DNA of 64,000 nucleotides from NCBI GenBank assembly GCA_900095095.1, contig FMBT01000293.1, positions 62,001 to 126,000 of the forward strand, in the 5' to 3' direction. Source of the stretch: Fragilariopsis cylindrus CCMP1102 (taxonomy: Eukaryota > Bacillariophyta > Bacillariophyceae > Bacillariales > Bacillariaceae). Positions 31,859-57,683 of the stretch are shown piece by piece (positions within the stretch are counted from its first letter, which is position 1; each line of letters opens with the position of its first letter). The notes beneath the pieces were generated by a model that saw nothing but the letters and a program-made list of their open reading frames with translations, did no database searches and was not told the DNA's origin. The position numbers and the translations under genes are program-made.

Positions 31859-34405
31859 TCACAACTTATCATCTTGTTCTGTTTGCTGCTGATCAGGCTG
31901 TTGTTGATGTGGATTTGAAACATCATGATGAACGATCTGCAGATCACTTTGAGCTTGTGCAAGCGCCTGTTCGTGGTCATGTGGGTTTGATAAATGCGTC
32001 AGCTGGTGTTGAGCTAGCTGTGCAGGATCATTTGATGCAATCTTAGTTTGCGAATATTGGAGTTGATGCTGTTGCTGTACCTGCTGCTGCACCTGTTGAT
32101 GTTGTTGTTGCTGCTCTTGCTGCGTATGAAACATCTGGATATGCTGCGGTACGTCATGTTGCACTAGCTGTGAAGTTGGGTTGGAAGGCAAGACAGGGTT
32201 GAGTTGTTGTTGATTCTGCTGATGTTGTTGTTGCTGCTGTTGCTGCTGCTCGTAGGAAACATTTACTACCTGATGGGAGATAGAGCGAGTTGATTGTTCC
32301 TGTTCCTGTTGGGGGTACGACACATGCGTAATTTGTTGTTCAACGGATGGTGCTTGTGCTTGTGGTGCAGGCATAGACGCGAAGCCATGCAAGCTAAGAG
32401 CTGGCTGCTGCTGCTGCTGCTGATGAGGAGACGATGAATATGTAGTTTGTTGTGAGATGCATTGTACTTGGGACATTTGTGTTGGCGGTGAATATACAGG
32501 CGCAGCAATGGGCAGAAGAGGTTGTTGGTATTGTTGTTGAGTGTACGGTACATGGGTCATTTGTTGCGTAATTGCTGGTACTTGTATTTCTTGGGTTGGT
32601 TGTGCTACGTTTACTGGTATGGTAAAATGGGATGGCTGATGCTGCTGCTGCAACTGCTGATGTTGTTGTTCTTGCTGCTGGTGCTGCTGCTGTGGAGCTG
32701 GTACTAGCTGGTGCTGATGTGGAGCTGGTACTATCTGGTGCGAGGTAGTAGTAACTACTCGTGAAGAAGCCGAAGCTTGATAATGATGTTGCTGTTGCTG
32801 CTGCTGCTGCTGCATCAGTTGGTACGGGTGTGCTTGAACTTGAACTTGAGCTACTTCGTAAATCTGTGGACTCATCGAAGGTTCCTGTTTGATTACTGGA
32901 ATCGTCGATTGGTGGTACTCTGCGGTGTGGCCATGCTGATGCTCTGTATACTGCGGAGAAGGTTGCTGCTGCTGTTGTTGCTGTGAAAGTGCTGGTGCAA
33001 CAAGCTGGTTCATCTGCGGGGGAGCTGCGTATACTTCACCTTGAAGAGGGTTGGTAGGGAGATCCTGCTGATGGTACCCTCCTACACCGGTGATAGCCGC
33101 AACAGTCTCGCTGATCTCCTGTAATTGATGATTATGTACTGGTACTTCACCTTCACTTGTAGTCATAGTATGTACGACTCCTACAGGTGTGGGCAAGATA
33201 TTTTGATTAACATCCCGATATATCTCGCGTTGATAATACCCATCTTGTTGGTGCTGATTTGGTGCATGTACTGGTAGATAGCCCTGTGTGGACGGTTCTC
33301 CTAAAATAGCAGTCATGGCTGCCTGTGCTACTATGTCACTATTGGCGCTAGCAGAACCCCCATAAATGGATGTCCTTCGGGTCGAAGAAGATGTTTCGCT
33401 ACCGAAGGAGGTTCCATGCCCATGCTTATACTTCGATACGACACGTTCAAATTCCTTTTCTGTAAAATCAAAAATTTCTGCTGCTAAAGCTTCATTTGTA
33501 TCCACATCCCCATAAATAGATGGATCCCAGACATCGGCTCCCACGTCGTTAATGTCGCCACCGTCATCGATACTCCCCACCTTGGACTTGGCTTTGTTCG
33601 TTTTACGTCGTTTTTTCTTACCATCACTACTACCACATTCCCCAGTGGCTTTTTCTCCGTGTCGTTTCTTTCGTTCGGTTTCTCCAAATCTTTCGCAAAT
33701 AAATTGTGCAAGTACCATATGAAATCCTTTATCCCTGCCCCACGCTCTAGCTAGTTGACGAAAAGACGCACCAGGAACGCCTGTGAGGACTAGTATTTCC
33801 ATCCATACTAGTTCCCGCTCCCAGCCCTCAAGCTGTGCGGCAGGATTGTCTATTGGAAACATCCCGCGTGCTCTCCGTTCTTCATTCCGATGCCAAGCAG
33901 GAGGCTTCAATGTATCGAAGCCATGTTTGAGATGAAGAATCAGAGGCATTGTATTATTCCATTCTTCTTTTCCGTTCTCACTTTCTTGTTCTCCGTTTTT
34001 GTTATTGTTGGGAAGAAAAGTTAGACTTTTAGGAAGAATCTCGTCATAGACGCTGATCCCTTGAGCTGGAGGTGGATTGTCCGAAATTTCCACCTTGGGA
34101 ATGGGTGTTGTTTGCCTTTTCATGGCTTTGAAATGGGACTTGCACATTTTATCAAAATTCCCCTGAGCCTGCTTGTCGCAACCCTCTACCTTGCAAGTTT
34201 TTGGTTTCGCTCCGTGACGTTGGCAAAGACCTTGTGACTTCACAATACGGTTGCACCCTTCTGTTCGACAGAAACGCCTTTTGTGTTTAAGAAATATCTC
34301 GGATGAATTGTTAACGTAAAGAAGCGAATCATCGCTTGGTATTTTCTCCTTCGTTGTCGCGGTTTCCTCGGACTTCAGAGCTGCAGCGACATGAGGAGTA
34401 GTCAT
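31859..34405 (-). CDS. Zinc-finger, Gln-rich protein (WRKY19-type CxxxxC fingers)
   Basis: This 848-residue single-exon gene encodes a putative transcription regulator. Residues 46-92 hold two small zinc modules: C46-x4-C51-x9-C61-x2-H64 and C71-x4-C76-x11-C88-x3-H92. This is the short repeat seen in WRKY19-like and many stramenopile proteins. A conserved-looking domain follows (about 150-250). It contains WHRNEERRARGMFP, LEGWERELVWMEILVLTGVPG and the RQLARAWGRDKGFHMVLAQFICERFG helix. A basic KKRRK cluster is a likely nuclear signal. The remaining 500 residues are Gln/His/Pro-rich, as in activation domains, with many CAG/CAA runs. Target genes are unknown. Confidence 0.8.
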   Translation of the reverse strand: MTTPHVAAALKSEETATTKEKIPSDDSLLYVNNSSEIFLKHKRRFCRTEGCNRIVKSQGLCQRHGAKPKTCKVEGCDKQAQGNFDKMCKSHFKAMKRQTTPIPKVEISDNPPPAQGISVYDEILPKSLTFLPNNNKNGEQESENGKEEWNNTMPLILHLKHGFDTLKPPAWHRNEERRARGMFPIDNPAAQLEGWERELVWMEILVLTGVPGASFRQLARAWGRDKGFHMVLAQFICERFGETERKKRHGEKATGECGSSDGKKKRRKTNKAKSKVGSIDDGGDINDVGADVWDPSIYGDVDTNEALAAEIFDFTEKEFERVVSKYKHGHGTSFGSETSSSTRRTSIYGGSASANSDIVAQAAMTAILGEPSTQGYLPVHAPNQHQQDGYYQREIYRDVNQNILPTPVGVVHTMTTSEGEVPVHNHQLQEISETVAAITGVGGYHQQDLPTNPLQGEVYAAPPQMNQLVAPALSQQQQQQQPSPQYTEHQHGHTAEYHQSTIPVIKQEPSMSPQIYEVAQVQVQAHPYQLMQQQQQQQQHHYQASASSRVVTTTSHQIVPAPHQHQLVPAPQQQHQQQEQQHQQLQQQHQPSHFTIPVNVAQPTQEIQVPAITQQMTHVPYTQQQYQQPLLPIAAPVYSPPTQMSQVQCISQQTTYSSSPHQQQQQQPALSLHGFASMPAPQAQAPSVEQQITHVSYPQQEQEQSTRSISHQVVNVSYEQQQQQQQQHQQNQQQLNPVLPSNPTSQLVQHDVPQHIQMFHTQQEQQQQHQQVQQQVQQQHQLQYSQTKIASNDPAQLAQHQLTHLSNPHDHEQALAQAQSDLQIVHHDVSNPHQQQPDQQQTEQDDKL

Positions 34406-34912
34406 GATAGCAGTTATTTCGACTTGAAAATCTTCTTTTATATATAGTACACAAAAATAGTCAATCGAGTATTCTTCGTGTGTACTGTATTCGTGTTCGT
34501 TAAACTCGTAATTATTCTCGTGTTTCTAAATTGCTGGCCTTTCTTCCGAAGCTTGAAACACAATAAGATAATCACACAAAGCTCGCTATCGTTGTGTGAA
34601 GCGTGATAATAATTGTAGTTTGGTAGGTGTTGAATGTTTTATGTGGGTTATGCGGTATGTATTGCTCTATCTTTGCTTCGACTCTCACGTTACTATACGA
34701 CATACAGTAATAGAGCGGTATGTTTAATGCGAGGCAAGGAGGATCTAAACGCAAAGACAGAATCTAGTACGCAACGTACATAATTTCTACGTAATGATAT
34801 TTTACTTAACGCTATTTCTCCGACACGTTACGATCGATGAAAAAATAACTTTCATTATCTATAATATTATACAGTATAATAACTCCTAATAATAACACAG
34901 CCCTCCTGCCCT
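34406..34912. other. Intergenic region
   Basis: Upstream region of the Gln-rich gene, AT-rich, with no gene seen. The minus-strand frame at 34572-34754 has no coding character. Confidence 0.5.
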
Positions 34913-50216: not shown

Positions 50217-51425
50217 ATGGAGGTTGAACCTACGATAACCGACGAAAGAGGAGGAGGAGAAACTCGCGTTGCCATCCACCCGGTAAGATCTTTAGTTTGT
50301 AGGAATAATAAAAGACAATTATTTTCACATTTGTACCTACGATTGCTAAAAATATGCAAATGGAATTTGCTAATTATTCGTTTTGTTTTCTTCTTTTTCA
50401 CCGCCTGCCTTAATTCGGATTATTAGCTTGCAATTGTCCATATGTCAGACCAATACACAAGAATTTCTTCTGGTGGCTCTCCGTTGGACAAGAACGCACC
50501 CGTTGTGGGTCTGTTGTTTGGATTGTCAGATGGCGAAAACAATAACGATCCCTCATTAAAGACATCAGAAATAATGTCCAACAATGACACCAACACAACC
50601 ACCGCCGCGGAAGGACCGTTCCTTCAAATTCTTGATGCAGATGATATCCCCGTTGAAGTTTCAGATGCGTCGACAATTCAAGTCGACCTACATTTTGCTG
50701 TGTTTTCAAAACACAAGGTAGTTGGATGGTATCGCGTGTCAGGAGAGAACGAAGAACCGACATCCGATGATTTGTTGATCACAAAAACCTTAAAGGATCA
50801 TTATGCCGCCTCTGATTCGTTCTGTTTTTGTTTACTCAAAGTTCAATCGAAAAAGAAAGATAATGGAGACGAGGATGAGATGAAAATGTCGGAGGACGCA
50901 GCAGCAACAGATACATTGAGTAAGGATTTGCCTATCAACCTGTATGAGGTTCATAATATCCAAAACACACCAATCTTGGTCGGATTATCAAACTGGCAAT
51001 TGGAGACGTCTCCATCGGAAAGAATTTCTATTGAACGCGTAATGAAAGCCCCTTCATCGGAATTGGGTGACGGAATAAGCCCGTCAAATAATCCCTACAT
51101 CATTGAAACGAAGGTAATGCAACATTCGTTGACAAGTATGAAGGATCGTGTACAAGTTTTGGTATCGTATCTTGAAGATGTACAAATAGGAAAAATTACG
51201 GCAAATCCTACCGTATTACGTCAGATCCAACAAATCGTGGTTTCGTTGGGTCCACTTTCAAGTCTAGCAGCCACAACCAATGAAGGGGAAGAAGAGGATG
51301 TACAAATGTTAGCTCATTTAGCAATTGTTGCTCGGACTGTAAATACAATTCAATCCTACACTGAAAAATTCCGTGTAGTGAATGAAAGCCGTACTCTATC
51401 GAAAGAAATGCGACGTGCATTTTAA
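50217..51425 (+). CDS. CSN6: COP9 signalosome subunit 6 (CSN6)
   Basis: Two exons, 50217-50282 and 50427-51425, with a 144-bp intron, give 354 residues. The MPN domain starts at TRVAIHPLAIVHMSDQYTR and VVGLLFGLSDG and continues to KHKVVGWYRVSG, the position of the GWY motif in CSN6. It lacks the JAMM zinc-binding His residues, as expected for the non-catalytic partner of CSN5. The C-terminal helical part (about 225-354), from SLTSMKDRVQVLVSYLEDV to KEMRRAF, matches the CSN6 tail that enters the signalosome helical bundle. The complex removes NEDD8 from cullins. An acidic Lys/Glu insert (about 150-175) is a local addition. Splicing joins VAIHP to LAIV, so exon 1 alone is only 22 codons. Confidence 0.93.
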
Positions 51426-53366: not shown

Positions 53367-54667
53367 ATGGGAGGTCGGAAGGATATTTGCGGTGGTCGAA
53401 GAGGCACGACCTTCGAGGCTACGAAATGGTTGTCCTTAGATTTGTGTGGCTTTGTCGGAATCACATTAAGCTTTTCTGTTCATCTTTTTGCCTTTGCTGT
53501 CATCACCTGTTATTTGCTAGCTGGTTCTTTAATTTCAACGGCTGTATTCATACTCCTGTATATGCCGGTATTCCTTCTGGCCCTTGTTTCGTTATTTATG
53601 GCTTGGTACGTAGCACTTGGTTCGACAATCCAATGTAATGTATGCTTTCCAGAGAATTAATTTCTCACAGATTTTCCTTTTCTTTTTTTGCATGCCGAAT
53701 CAATTCATAAATTACATTACGTAGGACAACCGATCCCGGCAGCGTTCCAATGGGTGCTAGGCCGTTAGTTACTATACGACGTGCAGCCTCTTCGACAGTC
53801 GATGAAAGTAATTCAAACGGCGGAGGAGGGAGCAATAATCAGCGTAAACGAGCATTACGTAGATGTCCTAAATGTAATGATAATTTCAAACCAGCTCGTG
53901 CTCACCATGACTCTGTAACTGGCCGATGTATTATAAAATTTGATCATGCATGCCCGTGGGTAGGTAATGCAATCGGTGCAATGAATCACAAATTCTTTGT
54001 TCAGTTTGTTGGATATACAATGACATCTTGCTTTTTTTCACTCTGTTTGATCGGGTTAAGAACATTGTACTGTGGACCACCCTCTCCATTATTAAATGAA
54101 TTTAGGAAAGGAGAAAAAGAAACACCAGAACACGTAGAAGAGTGTACTGGTTGGAATGAAAGTTTTGCAGGATTGATTCTACTGATAATATCCGTAGTCT
54201 TCTTTTTATTTACAAGTTGCATGTTTGTTGAACAAATTGAGGCAATCAAAACCAATGCTAGTAAGATAGCTCGTATGAAAATGAGTGTCGGATTGGGGGG
54301 AACAGAACTGCAAAGGGTGACAGAAGAATTTAATGAAATGTTTGGAGGGGACTCGAACCAATGCGCATTGCATTGGTTTATACCGATGCCTATTGAATTT
54401 CCACGCGGAATGAAGAAAGCAGTGCTAGGTTACGACTGGGACGAAACATTTGACGCAGTGCCTTATCAAGAGAATGGAGATGTCGAAACGGGTCCATCAC
54501 GATCTGCCGCAAGAACTAATCTTGAATTGACAACAGTTTCGTCTGCATCATCGTCATCATCGAATATGAATCAGAATGAGGTAGAGGAAAATCCAAAGCT
54601 CGTCAAACGGAATAACAGTAGAGATCACGTTCAAACCCCAATAAATCCAGTAGGCACTTTGACCTGA
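53367..54667 (+). CDS. Palmitoyltransferase-like protein with DHAC motif and one zinc site lost
   Basis: Two exons, 53367-53605 and 53725-54667 (119-bp intron), encode 393 residues. Two membrane helices (about 25-80) are followed by TTDPGSVP, then the cysteine-rich domain, then two more helices (about 172-195 and 225-248), the usual zDHHC topology. The cysteine-rich domain has CPKC, PARAHH, GRC and DHACPWVGN, with the catalytic Cys at 156. Position by position it matches human zDHHC20 numbering. C142, C145, H155 and C162, the four ligands of one zinc ion, are here D142, T145, A155 and A162. The other site (CPKC, H141, C148) and D153, H154 and C156 are kept. The typical TTxE motif after the last helix is weak. 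The C-terminal tail is Ser-rich. It is probably a protein S-acyltransferase or a changed relative. Confidence 0.85.
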
Positions 54668-54858: not shown

Positions 54859-57683
54859 TTAATCCAGAGCACAATCATCATGAGGTCCACAAGACGAGAT
54901 GGGAAGGTTCATGATGTCGTCAGGTAGATCCAATAAGGTAACAGGATCTTCACGATCATAAGGAAGGGGAGACATAGAAATATCATCCACTGGTTGCCCC
55001 TCTTCAGAACTGTCGTCCTCTTCCATGGCTTCGTTGGTCTCATCTCCTGTTACTGGGATGAATTTCCCTGGACTTACTCGATGTTCACCCTGATCTTTAT
55101 CCTTATTGTCTCCAACTTGGGGAAACTCCCTCTCTACCTCTTCTTGGTCCGGAATCGACCTAAATTTAGATTTAACAGGTTCAGGTCTCGATGGAACTTC
55201 TGCTACTTCCACCTTCGAATTCGATATGATATCGTTCTTACTAGCCGATTGACGTTGATGTGAAGTATTAATCTTTTCATCCATATCAGAGGTTTTCTTT
55301 TCCTCTTCGACACGATCACAATGATAGTGAGGATGATCTTCCTTGGCTCGCTGATACCTTGGAGAACGAGGTGAAGGAGGACGAAATTCTTGTTGACGAT
55401 CTCGATCATAAGTCGACGGTGACCGAGGCGGCGCCCCAGATGGACGATGTATCACTGGTCTAAATGACCGGGACGTTGACCGAGGCGATAGATGCAATTG
55501 TGGTGAATACCCTCTCTTGCTGCTACTCGGCCTTCCCTCTCCTCTCAAACATGGTACAGAAAGATCCCCACTACTCTCGTTGTTATCATGATAATCATTG
55601 TGGTCGTAGTAGTGGTCATGGTGACGATGTTGTTGTGGTGAAGCTGATCTTGGCGTCCAACTAGGTGATCTTTCGGGTATGCACTCGCCATGATGATATG
55701 GCGAGGGTGGGTACTGACCAGGAGAGTCGTATGCCTCATATTGATGCCTATAACCGCGCCTAGGAGACCACGGCTCCTCCGCCGGAGGTTGGTTCGAGTA
55801 GTAGTCCCCCGGTGAGTACTTATCCTGACCTAGCGGCATGGGCCCGCTTGATGAAGTCGGCGAAGGAGGACTTAATGAGCGTGTCGGAGCCGGAGAAGTA
55901 GGAGCATACATCCCAGCTGTTGGCGGTGAACGATGCTGATGATGGTAATAGTGGTCATCATGGCTATGCTGATGGTGATAACGCGTATCATGATGACGAC
56001 TACTTCCATGCGGAGACCAAGAATGATGACGAGGGGGTAGTCCAGGATCTGAAGGCCCATTATGATAATCAAATGAATGACTACGGGAATAGCTTGGAGG
56101 CTTGCTATATGGTGGATGTGGCGCTTGATGATATGGAGAGTGGTGTGGATGTGGATACGATCGATGCCTTTCGGGGTATGGAGGTGGACCCCCACCCCAT
56201 GTCATCGGTGAATTAGGAAGAGAACGACCGTGTGGTGGTGGAGGAGGTGGTCCTGGTGAACGAGGAGATGGTGGATACATACTATAGTTCCACGGTGGTG
56301 GGTAGTTAGTACCTCCTGGTGTTCTTGGTTCATTCTGCGTCTTGATGCGTCTGGCCTTGCTTGTTAATTTGGCCAATTCAGATGGATTTGATTTTATACG
56401 CCTGTGCCCTTTCTTTACTAAGGCAGGCTTTATTTTTGGAGTTTTTAAAATGGATCGATTGATAGAATTAGAAAGGAGACGATTGAGTTGATATTTGTGA
56501 ATAATACACTATGATATAAAATTATATTCAAACAATACGGATACATACCTTGATCGCCTTCACCTTCTCTGGAGATTGCCCCTTAGTCCCCTTGTTATTT
56601 TCTTTCCCATTTATTCTAATTGTGCCCTTTTCTTTACCTCCCTTCTTTTTCTTCTTATCGTTATCTCCATCTTCCTTGAAGTGATCTGTACCATCCTCAC
56701 TGAATACACCATCTAGGAAGTAGGGATCTCCAAGATCATCTGATAGTTGCTTCCTCAACATAGCTGCTCCGTCACGTAAAGCCTGACTTGTTTTTTCCAC
56801 AGCCTTTTTGTGACCAATATCATGCCAAAGCCCCGATAATGGATCCTTATCAAGGAACCTACCCGGCGGATCAAGAGATCGTACAGCCTGTACGATAGAT
56901 CTAGATATTCCCATCTTCTCCCTTTTGGTGCTGGAAACATACAATTCCTAAAAGTAATAATCGTCGAAGAGGGAAATTGAGAAGGGAAGAAAAAGAAGAA
57001 TGGCGGTGAGTACAGTGTACGGGTGTTTCGGTTCAACAGGCGAATGCTTCAAATTGGGTATAACTTTTTTTACAAAATATAAAACGATGAATACGATAGC
57101 GAAGAGTAGCATCAACAACTAGGTCTATTGCCACGAAGTAGCTTCGGATGAAAAGACGATGATGATGACGATGGTGACGACGACGGAGGGGAAGTGGCGA
57201 CAGTAGCATCAAGAATAATTATATTATCATCATGGGAGTTACTGTAATAATATAATAACAACGTAAATATGTTTACAGTTTTTTCTTTCTAATTTGTTTG
57301 AATTGTTCTTTTTAACGAAACCGAACAACGGCATCAACGAATAATTCAGTCTTGTTATATTAAGATTCCATTTTGTTTACAAATTCTATTATGTGAAGTA
57401 TTGAAAAATCAAAGGAATTTGGAATGTTGGAAATTTCTTCTAATTTTTTTTTCAAACGTACCTTATTCAAACCCACGAGACTGCGAAAACTTTCATTTCC
57501 AGGATGTCGATTCGTTGTGACTCCTCTACCGCAAAGAACATCTTGATGATGAGGCTTTACGATATCGAACATTTTCTGTTCATCTACAAGTAAAAGGTGG
57601 TTATCAGACGTTGTTGGAGGGATCAAACTTGATGTCGACTCCACCGGTATCGGTCCTGATGTGTCTACTACAGAGCCCATCAT
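54859..57683 (-). CDS. DUF6824-domain protein with long Pro/Ser/His-rich C-terminus
   Basis: Exon 1 is 57683-57462 and exon 2 is 56947-56549 (intron 514 bp). Exon 3 starts at 56508 or 56427 and ends at 54859. The DUF6824 domain, common in diatoms, is split across exons 1 and 2. It runs HHQDVLCGRGVTTNRHPGNESFRSLVGLNK-ELYVSSTKREK, then ISRSIVQAVRSLDPPGRFLDKD, LWHDIGHKKAVEKTSQALRDGA. A Lys-rich stretch follows (possible nuclear signal). The last 500 residues are Pro, Ser, His, Tyr and Arg-rich with RSPS-like pairs and end in VTLLDLPDDIMNLPIS, an acidic-hydrophobic motif. The intron before exon 3 would be only 40 bp if exon 3 starts at 56508; starting at 56427 makes it 121 bp but with a poor acceptor. 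A regulatory or DNA-linked role is often suggested for this domain; it is unproven. Confidence 0.82.

Follow-up and report, generated by a model that had tools for sequence, protein, structure and literature searches.

A palmitoyltransferase gene and its surroundings

The window, that is, the whole stretch of 64,000 nucleotides from the diatom Fragilariopsis cylindrus CCMP1102 (contig FMBT01000293.1) analysed here, carries on its plus strand a zDHHC palmitoyltransferase (PAT) gene at positions 53367-54667, which open reading frames and an enumeration of splice sites resolve into two exons with a 393 aa product. When the start is held at 53367 and donors between 53560 and 53664 are scanned, frame and DPG motif both survive in three splice pairs, a single one of which has a consensus-like donor (GTACGT at 53606); the alternatives use GTTATT at 53591 or, at 53564, a GC donor. 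The likely gene structure, judged from the sequence, is 53367-53605 joined to 53725-54667, around an inferred intron of 119 bases (53606-53724, GTACGTAG...TTACGTAG, G+C 0.336). The first exon holds the start codon, the N-terminus and TM1-TM2, which align to those of an intact paralogue from the same genome (C299). The second holds the DPG motif (53732-53740, read from the sequence within TTDPGSVP), the cysteine-rich domain, TM3-TM4, the C-terminal tail and the stop codon.

The assignment to the zDHHC family is clear from the second exon, which scores 90 bits against the Pfam DHHC profile (PF01529; curated cut-off 28.7). Compared with solved structures, it matches eight distinct sequences at E ≤ 0.001, all of them palmitoyltransferases with human DHHC20 at the top (phmmer against 6bmm, E 9.6e-15). 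A Pfam search of the exon-1 and exon-2 frames at E up to 0.1 gave DHHC as the sole match, and thus none of the ankyrin repeats that precede TM1 in PATs of the Akr1/HIP14 type. Hydropathy peaks lie at residues 60-78 and 230-248, the scan used giving TM1 and TM3 no separate peaks; an AlphaFold2 model has two long helices after the cysteine-rich domain, and in the BLAST alignment C299 matches it along this entire stretch. C299 is the best BLAST match among the 14 other assembled PAT types of the genome (29% identity over 295 columns), and the window PAT itself was found once, on a single contig.

Three other open frames of the window were noted. Upstream of the PAT gene, on the plus strand (50427-51425), lies a frame of 332 aa with a MitMem_reg domain (PF13012, E 3.3e-13), and convergent with the PAT gene, on the minus strand (54859-56508), a Pro/His/Ser-rich frame of 549 aa with no Pfam match. 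Further away, a glutamine-rich frame of 888 aa (minus strand, 31859-34525) contains a zinc finger of the WRKY19 type (PF24906, E 1.2e-8).

Zinc ligands and catalytic residues

Aligned by phmmer to human DHHC20, whose numbering is used throughout, the cysteine-rich domain reads RRCPKCNDNFKPARAHHDSVTGRCIIKFDHACPWVGNAIGAMNHKFF, with one extra residue following CPKC. In the DHHC20 structure, C142, C145, H155 and C162 are the ligands of one zinc ion (site 2) and the other four, C128, C131, H141 and C148, those of the second (site 1). This grouping fits reports that in the HHC stretch a His and the Cys next to it are ligands of separate zinc ions (PMC8227752), and that Cys146 of zDHHC3 and Cys161 of zDHHC9 are not part of the same finger (PMC7586229).

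The earlier note had read this domain as HHD-SV-T-GRC followed by DHAC-PWVGNA, with one zinc site replaced by D, T, A and A and everything needed for the other site and for catalysis still in place. The motif is indeed found on the plus strand at 53903-53971, and the alignment to DHHC20 bears out each of these substitutions and retentions. Site 1 is complete (4/4), with C128 and C131 in CPKC (53864-53875), H141 at 53906-53908 and C148 at 53927-53929. None of the four ligands of site 2 is left: D142-S-V-T145-G146 (53909-53923), predicted by AlphaFold2 to be a hairpin turn, stands in place of the CxxC knuckle, H155 has become Ala within the DHAC active-site motif (53942-53953), and A162 replaces the last ligand (53969-53971). 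D153, H154 and C156 are all kept in that motif, as are CPW and NHKFF further on and R126, K135 and H140, which have been named as a likely CoA-binding patch (PMC8227752).

The codons concerned are GAC at 53909 (C142 to D), ACT at 53918 (C145 to T) and GCA at both 53948 (H155 to A) and 53969 (C162 to A). A minimum of 2 + 2 + 3 + 3 = 10 base changes separates them from any ligand codon, so that read error is untenable as an explanation of all four. Had four of the eight ligands been lost at random, exactly site 2 would be hit once in 70 cases, and one or the other whole site twice in 70. The earlier note considered random decay unlikely, and at least 10 substitutions in an otherwise open and well-kept gene do argue against plain decay as well as error. 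A DNA pattern for HHD-xx-TGRC has one match in the genome, at the window gene, and its reversed control has none.

The window PAT thus shares with human DHHC20 (PDB 6BML/6BMM) and with C299 the domain order, DPG, CPxxC, H141, C148, D153/H154/C156, CPW, NxKFF and the CoA patch, but differs from these enzymes with two CCHC sites in the replacement of all site 2 ligands and in a second respect. The claim that nothing else had changed was wrong, as the place of the TTxE motif is taken by SKIA (54260-54271); phmmer sets n-a-s-k-i-a against n-r-t-t-i-e of DHHC20 in a low-scoring stretch, and the register is identical in a BLAST alignment with C299. The enzyme has been changed elsewhere by this reading, and its activity could be weak or lost. 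Two intact PATs of the same clade, C648 and C88:410k, also have no strict TTxE, BLAST aligning GTID to its place.

Loss of site 2 across the PATs of the genome

In the genome (67.9 Mb, 818 contigs), at least 28 matches to the Pfam DHHC profile collapse to 22 gene places and 15 PAT types when look-alike contigs are counted once. The look-alikes are C648/C565, C80/C773, C189/C223, C322/C451, C90/C530 and C499/C84/C232, among which only C189/C223 has a measured identity (97%); C37 was counted together with C408, as its presumed copy. Copies on two or three contigs are as expected from uncollapsed haplotypes or recent duplication.

Ligands were read by hand from the translations of this one genome. 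All four ligands of site 2 are kept in 8/15 types. Neither H155 nor C162 is present in 7/15 types, the other 8 keep the two of them, and no type splits the pair, a linkage that is significant by Fisher's test for 15 types whose kinship is not corrected for (p 1.6e-4; 7.8e-4 without C408 and C322, 1.3e-3 without C306 too). Far from being exceptional, the window PAT is accompanied by six further types with a degraded site 2 in its own genome, and yeast Akr1 offers a precedent (PMC8227752). At positions 142, 145, 155 and 162, where the window gene has D, T, A and A, these types have C, S, F, T (C499), D, T, Y, P (C596), D, K, M, T (C223), D, S, Y, A (C88:603k), D, T, T, A (C322) and C, C, L, G (C408), the last being counted among the seven losers despite its C142 and C145. 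The two weakest members of the set are C408, whose exon has no Pfam match, and C322, whose exon falls just below the cut-off, when each is scanned alone. From these sequences, the loss does not look like a one-off but like a variant that recurs within a known family of enzymes.

Some of these relatives have peculiarities of their own. The PATs of C596 (L002, minus strand 1372-2193), with a DHYC core, and of C189/C223 (L007, minus 1078-2544; L008, plus 895-2379), with a DHMC core, have GW for PW after the active Cys, are one residue longer around the knuckle and have lost most of their zinc ligands; they form a supported pair in the tree described below (99/97). C322 (L021), C451 (L022) and C408 (L020) are PAT-like, with DHTC and DHLC cores and few zinc ligands left.

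Site 1 follows a different pattern. It is whole in 7/8 types with an intact site 2, and in the eighth, C306, which has no readable exon covering positions 128/131, both visible ligands are present (2/2). It is whole in only 2/7 degraded types, the window gene and C499, the former being the only one of the 15 types read in which site 1 is complete and site 2 fully gone. Damage to site 1 is restricted to types with a degraded site 2 (5/5, among 15 types), which suggests that site 2 is degraded before site 1 is damaged. Some of these readings depend on alignment or exon limits: positions 128/131 of C322 and C408 were scored as unseen, being N/A and N/V provided that the open frame there belongs to an exon, and C148 of C596 and C223 hinges on the placement of a one-residue insertion (R or H in the former, C or I in the latter).

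A maximum-likelihood tree was built on the cysteine-rich domain and TM3-TM4, in which the rows of C88:318k, C80, C408 and C322 fill less than half of the columns. The window gene forms a clade with four intact PATs, C299, C88:318k, C648 and C88:410k (98/97). In a reduced tree, from which the eight ligand columns and the four fragmentary rows were removed, it still groups with the remaining three (99/98), with a warning that long branches, including that of the window gene, meet there. Single clades were then imposed on groups chosen after the sequences had been seen, and likelihood fell for each of the five such groupings: the complete set of seven losers (p-AU 0.018), the five types with D142 (p-AU 0.016), the window gene with C596 and C322 (the DxxTG types discussed below; p-AU 3.7e-5), with C499 (p-AU 4.0e-4) and with C88:603k (p-AU 0.028). 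By parsimony the loss label needs four changes, two of which are forced by well-supported branches. With shuffled labels a mean of 5.2 changes is needed, and because 106/500 shuffles require as few changes as observed (382/500 on the reduced tree), the tree does not show the label to be clustered or unclustered beyond chance. As the window gene nests with intact PATs and a single clade of losers is disfavoured, these sequences indicate that site 2 was probably lost more than once; an exact number is not claimed, since the groups were defined post hoc, branches are long and 5/12 inner branches have support under 80.

A proposed metal-free turn in place of the knuckle

The replacements of the knuckle are themselves partly alike. 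D142 is present in 5/7 degraded types, and 3/7 lost knuckles read DxxTG, namely DSVTG in the window gene, DRRTG in C596 and DPDTG in C322. The two forms stand side by side in C408 and C322, nearest relatives in the tree (98/96, both rows being fragmentary), which read GALYCRECGVLI and GAWYDPDTGVIV, respectively; the CxxCG knuckle of C408 (CRECG) stands where C322 has DPDTG.

Structure prediction, a check proposed in the earlier note, was run on exon 2 with AlphaFold2. In the model, residues 64-67 and 72-75 (exon-2 numbering) form strands on either side of the DSVTG turn, and in a control model of an intact paralogue (L009) strands 74-77 and 82-85 flank CPEC in the same register from residue 142. 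The hairpin is thus predicted in the register of the intact knuckle, but the model carrying it is of low confidence: its mean pLDDT is 57 (80, 80, 73 and 65 for ten-residue blocks of the cysteine-rich domain) vs 72 for the control (92, 90 and 87). The two models share one alignment of 14 proteins (the window protein and others of the genome) and are not independent, and as AlphaFold omits zinc, an identical hairpin could be predicted with any ligands. Searching with the window model, Foldseek returned DHHC enzymes as all of its best 11 PDB chains (9 at E ≤ 0.001), from DHHC20, 6bms (DHHC15), Erf2 and ZDHHC5, with TM-scores that are low (0.15 to 0.29).

On balance we favour the reading, based on sequence and model, that the window gene encodes a working zDHHC S-acyltransferase with four TM segments, whose cysteine-rich domain binds one zinc and whose second knuckle is now a metal-free turn. 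For this PAT we infer single-zinc binding, catalytic activity and capping by Asp and Thr. Site 1 would hold the scaffold beneath the CoA patch and D153/H154/C156, supporting the sheet that presents C156. At site 2, a beta-hairpin turn that needs no metal, D142-x-x-T145-G146, would have replaced the CxxC knuckle, and its Asp142 carboxylate and Thr145 hydroxyl may cap what was formerly pinned by two thiolates and zinc; the turn's own hydrogen bonds would then hold the second knuckle, with Asp142 and Thr145 in the thiolates' stead. Freed from the constraint of the metal, H155 and C162 could each become a small residue, Ala. The acyl-transfer chemistry relies on D153, H154 and C156, all retained. 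Two other roles for Asp142 were considered and dropped, that of a substitute zinc ligand, with which a site containing T145, A155 and A162 would have one ligand in all, and that of a D142-R147 salt bridge as the sole replacement, which is less probable because the basic residue of the paralogues is not at a fixed place.

There is a parallel for such a conversion in the chromatin proteins Cren7/Sul7, which are zinc ribbons without their former zinc. CPxCG zinc knuckles are described as occupying hairpin turns, and in Cren7/Sul7 they have metal-free descendants, some family members keeping the ligands (PMC5906684). These proteins differ from the window PAT in being unrelated to it and in offsetting the lost metal by stronger hydrophobic contacts (PMC5906684). 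A closer precedent is yeast Akr1 (DHYC), like the window enzyme a PAT without some of its zinc ligands, H155 among them, and reported to be active (PMC8227752, PMC4192757, PMC3234281). In Akr1 the two fingers are said to be short of one histidine as well as five cysteines (PMC8227752), 6/8 ligands over both sites; it and has ankyrin repeats, whereas site 1 of the window PAT is whole. Ligand loss in working PATs is already known from Akr1, Akr2 and Pfa5 (PMC8227752, PMC4192757), and Akr1 suggests that two CCHC zinc sites are not strictly defining for zDHHC enzymes (PMC8227752). Among the literature matches listed, we found neither a PAT in which one site is entirely lost while the other is complete, nor diatom PATs, nor a recurring DxxTG replacement, nor any paper containing the peptides searched for.

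The main competing explanation is that the protein is a pseudoenzyme, having kept the PAT fold but lost all or nearly all acyltransfer under relaxed catalytic constraint, and now serving as a scaffold or partner subunit. The degradation of both site 2 and TTxE, the latter termed essential (PMC8227752), is what this would produce, and so is the additional damage to site 1 in 5/7 of the types with a degraded site 2. We nevertheless think it unlikely: D153, H154, C156 and the CoA patch of the window PAT are intact, its intact clade relatives C648 and C88:410k deviate from strict TTxE as well (GTID), yeast Akr1, Akr2 and Pfa5 are said to be active with Tyr for H155 (PMC4192757), and Akr1 is reported to be so without 6/8 ligands (PMC8227752).

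Quite improbable, in our estimation, is drift in a tolerant domain, by which the second zinc is dispensable, ligands are lost singly, with each loss depriving the remaining ones of their use, the D/T/A/A set has no role and the recurrence of DxxTG is a coincidence. Losses are certainly frequent (7/15 types read), the replacements vary (D or retained C at 142; T, S, K or retained C at 145; A, F, Y, M, T or L at 155; A, T, P or G at 162), camel DHHC8 is without ligands and two yeast PATs tolerate many ligand exchanges (PMC8227752). Set against this, D142 in 5/7 types and DxxTG in 3/7, on branches that do not group, look too uniform, though the motif was noticed post hoc and no probability is attached to it. 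A decaying pseudogene or an assembly artefact is very hard to credit even for a gene known from one genome and one contig, with no second copy as a check on the reads, given at least 10 base changes over four codons in an intact frame, consensus intron ends, DPG, CPW and NHKFF motifs that are conserved along with the active site and site 1, and the related D-x-x-T/S/K knuckles on other contigs, where C189/C223 and C322/C451 each repeat the same reading.

If the window PAT is a working enzyme with a metal-free turn, it could represent an intermediate, and we tentatively raise the possibility that diatom PATs repeatedly and independently drop site 2 via a DxxTG turn, along with H155 and C162, and that site 1 falls later. 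That zinc economy of the alga is the reason for losing site 2 is speculation. It is hard to separate zinc needed for the fold of a zDHHC enzyme from zinc needed for catalysis, as mutants may misfold, and a clean test of these roles would come from an enzyme that in nature lacks just one of the sites and has a candidate metal-free substitute for it.

Relatives were also looked for outside the diatom. A protein search with exon 2 of prokaryote and virus contig collections found none. The HHD-xx-TGRC DNA pattern matched one viral contig, where inspection by eye suggested phage-like frames and showed no PAT at the matching position, and a longer version had no match in non-viral genome contigs. 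Patterns for DHHCPW, DHYCPW and DHFCPW matched 9, 12 and 1 viral stretches, respectively, where translations read by eye at 22/22 matches (two of them, L033 and L027, cut close to the match) revealed no PAT; the DHAC pattern had no match in the viral stretches. In the diatom genome itself, the silicon transporter family gave 27 exon-wise matches (best E 1e-226), as would be expected of a diatom, compared with a match in 1/14 control genomes, which was below the cut-off.
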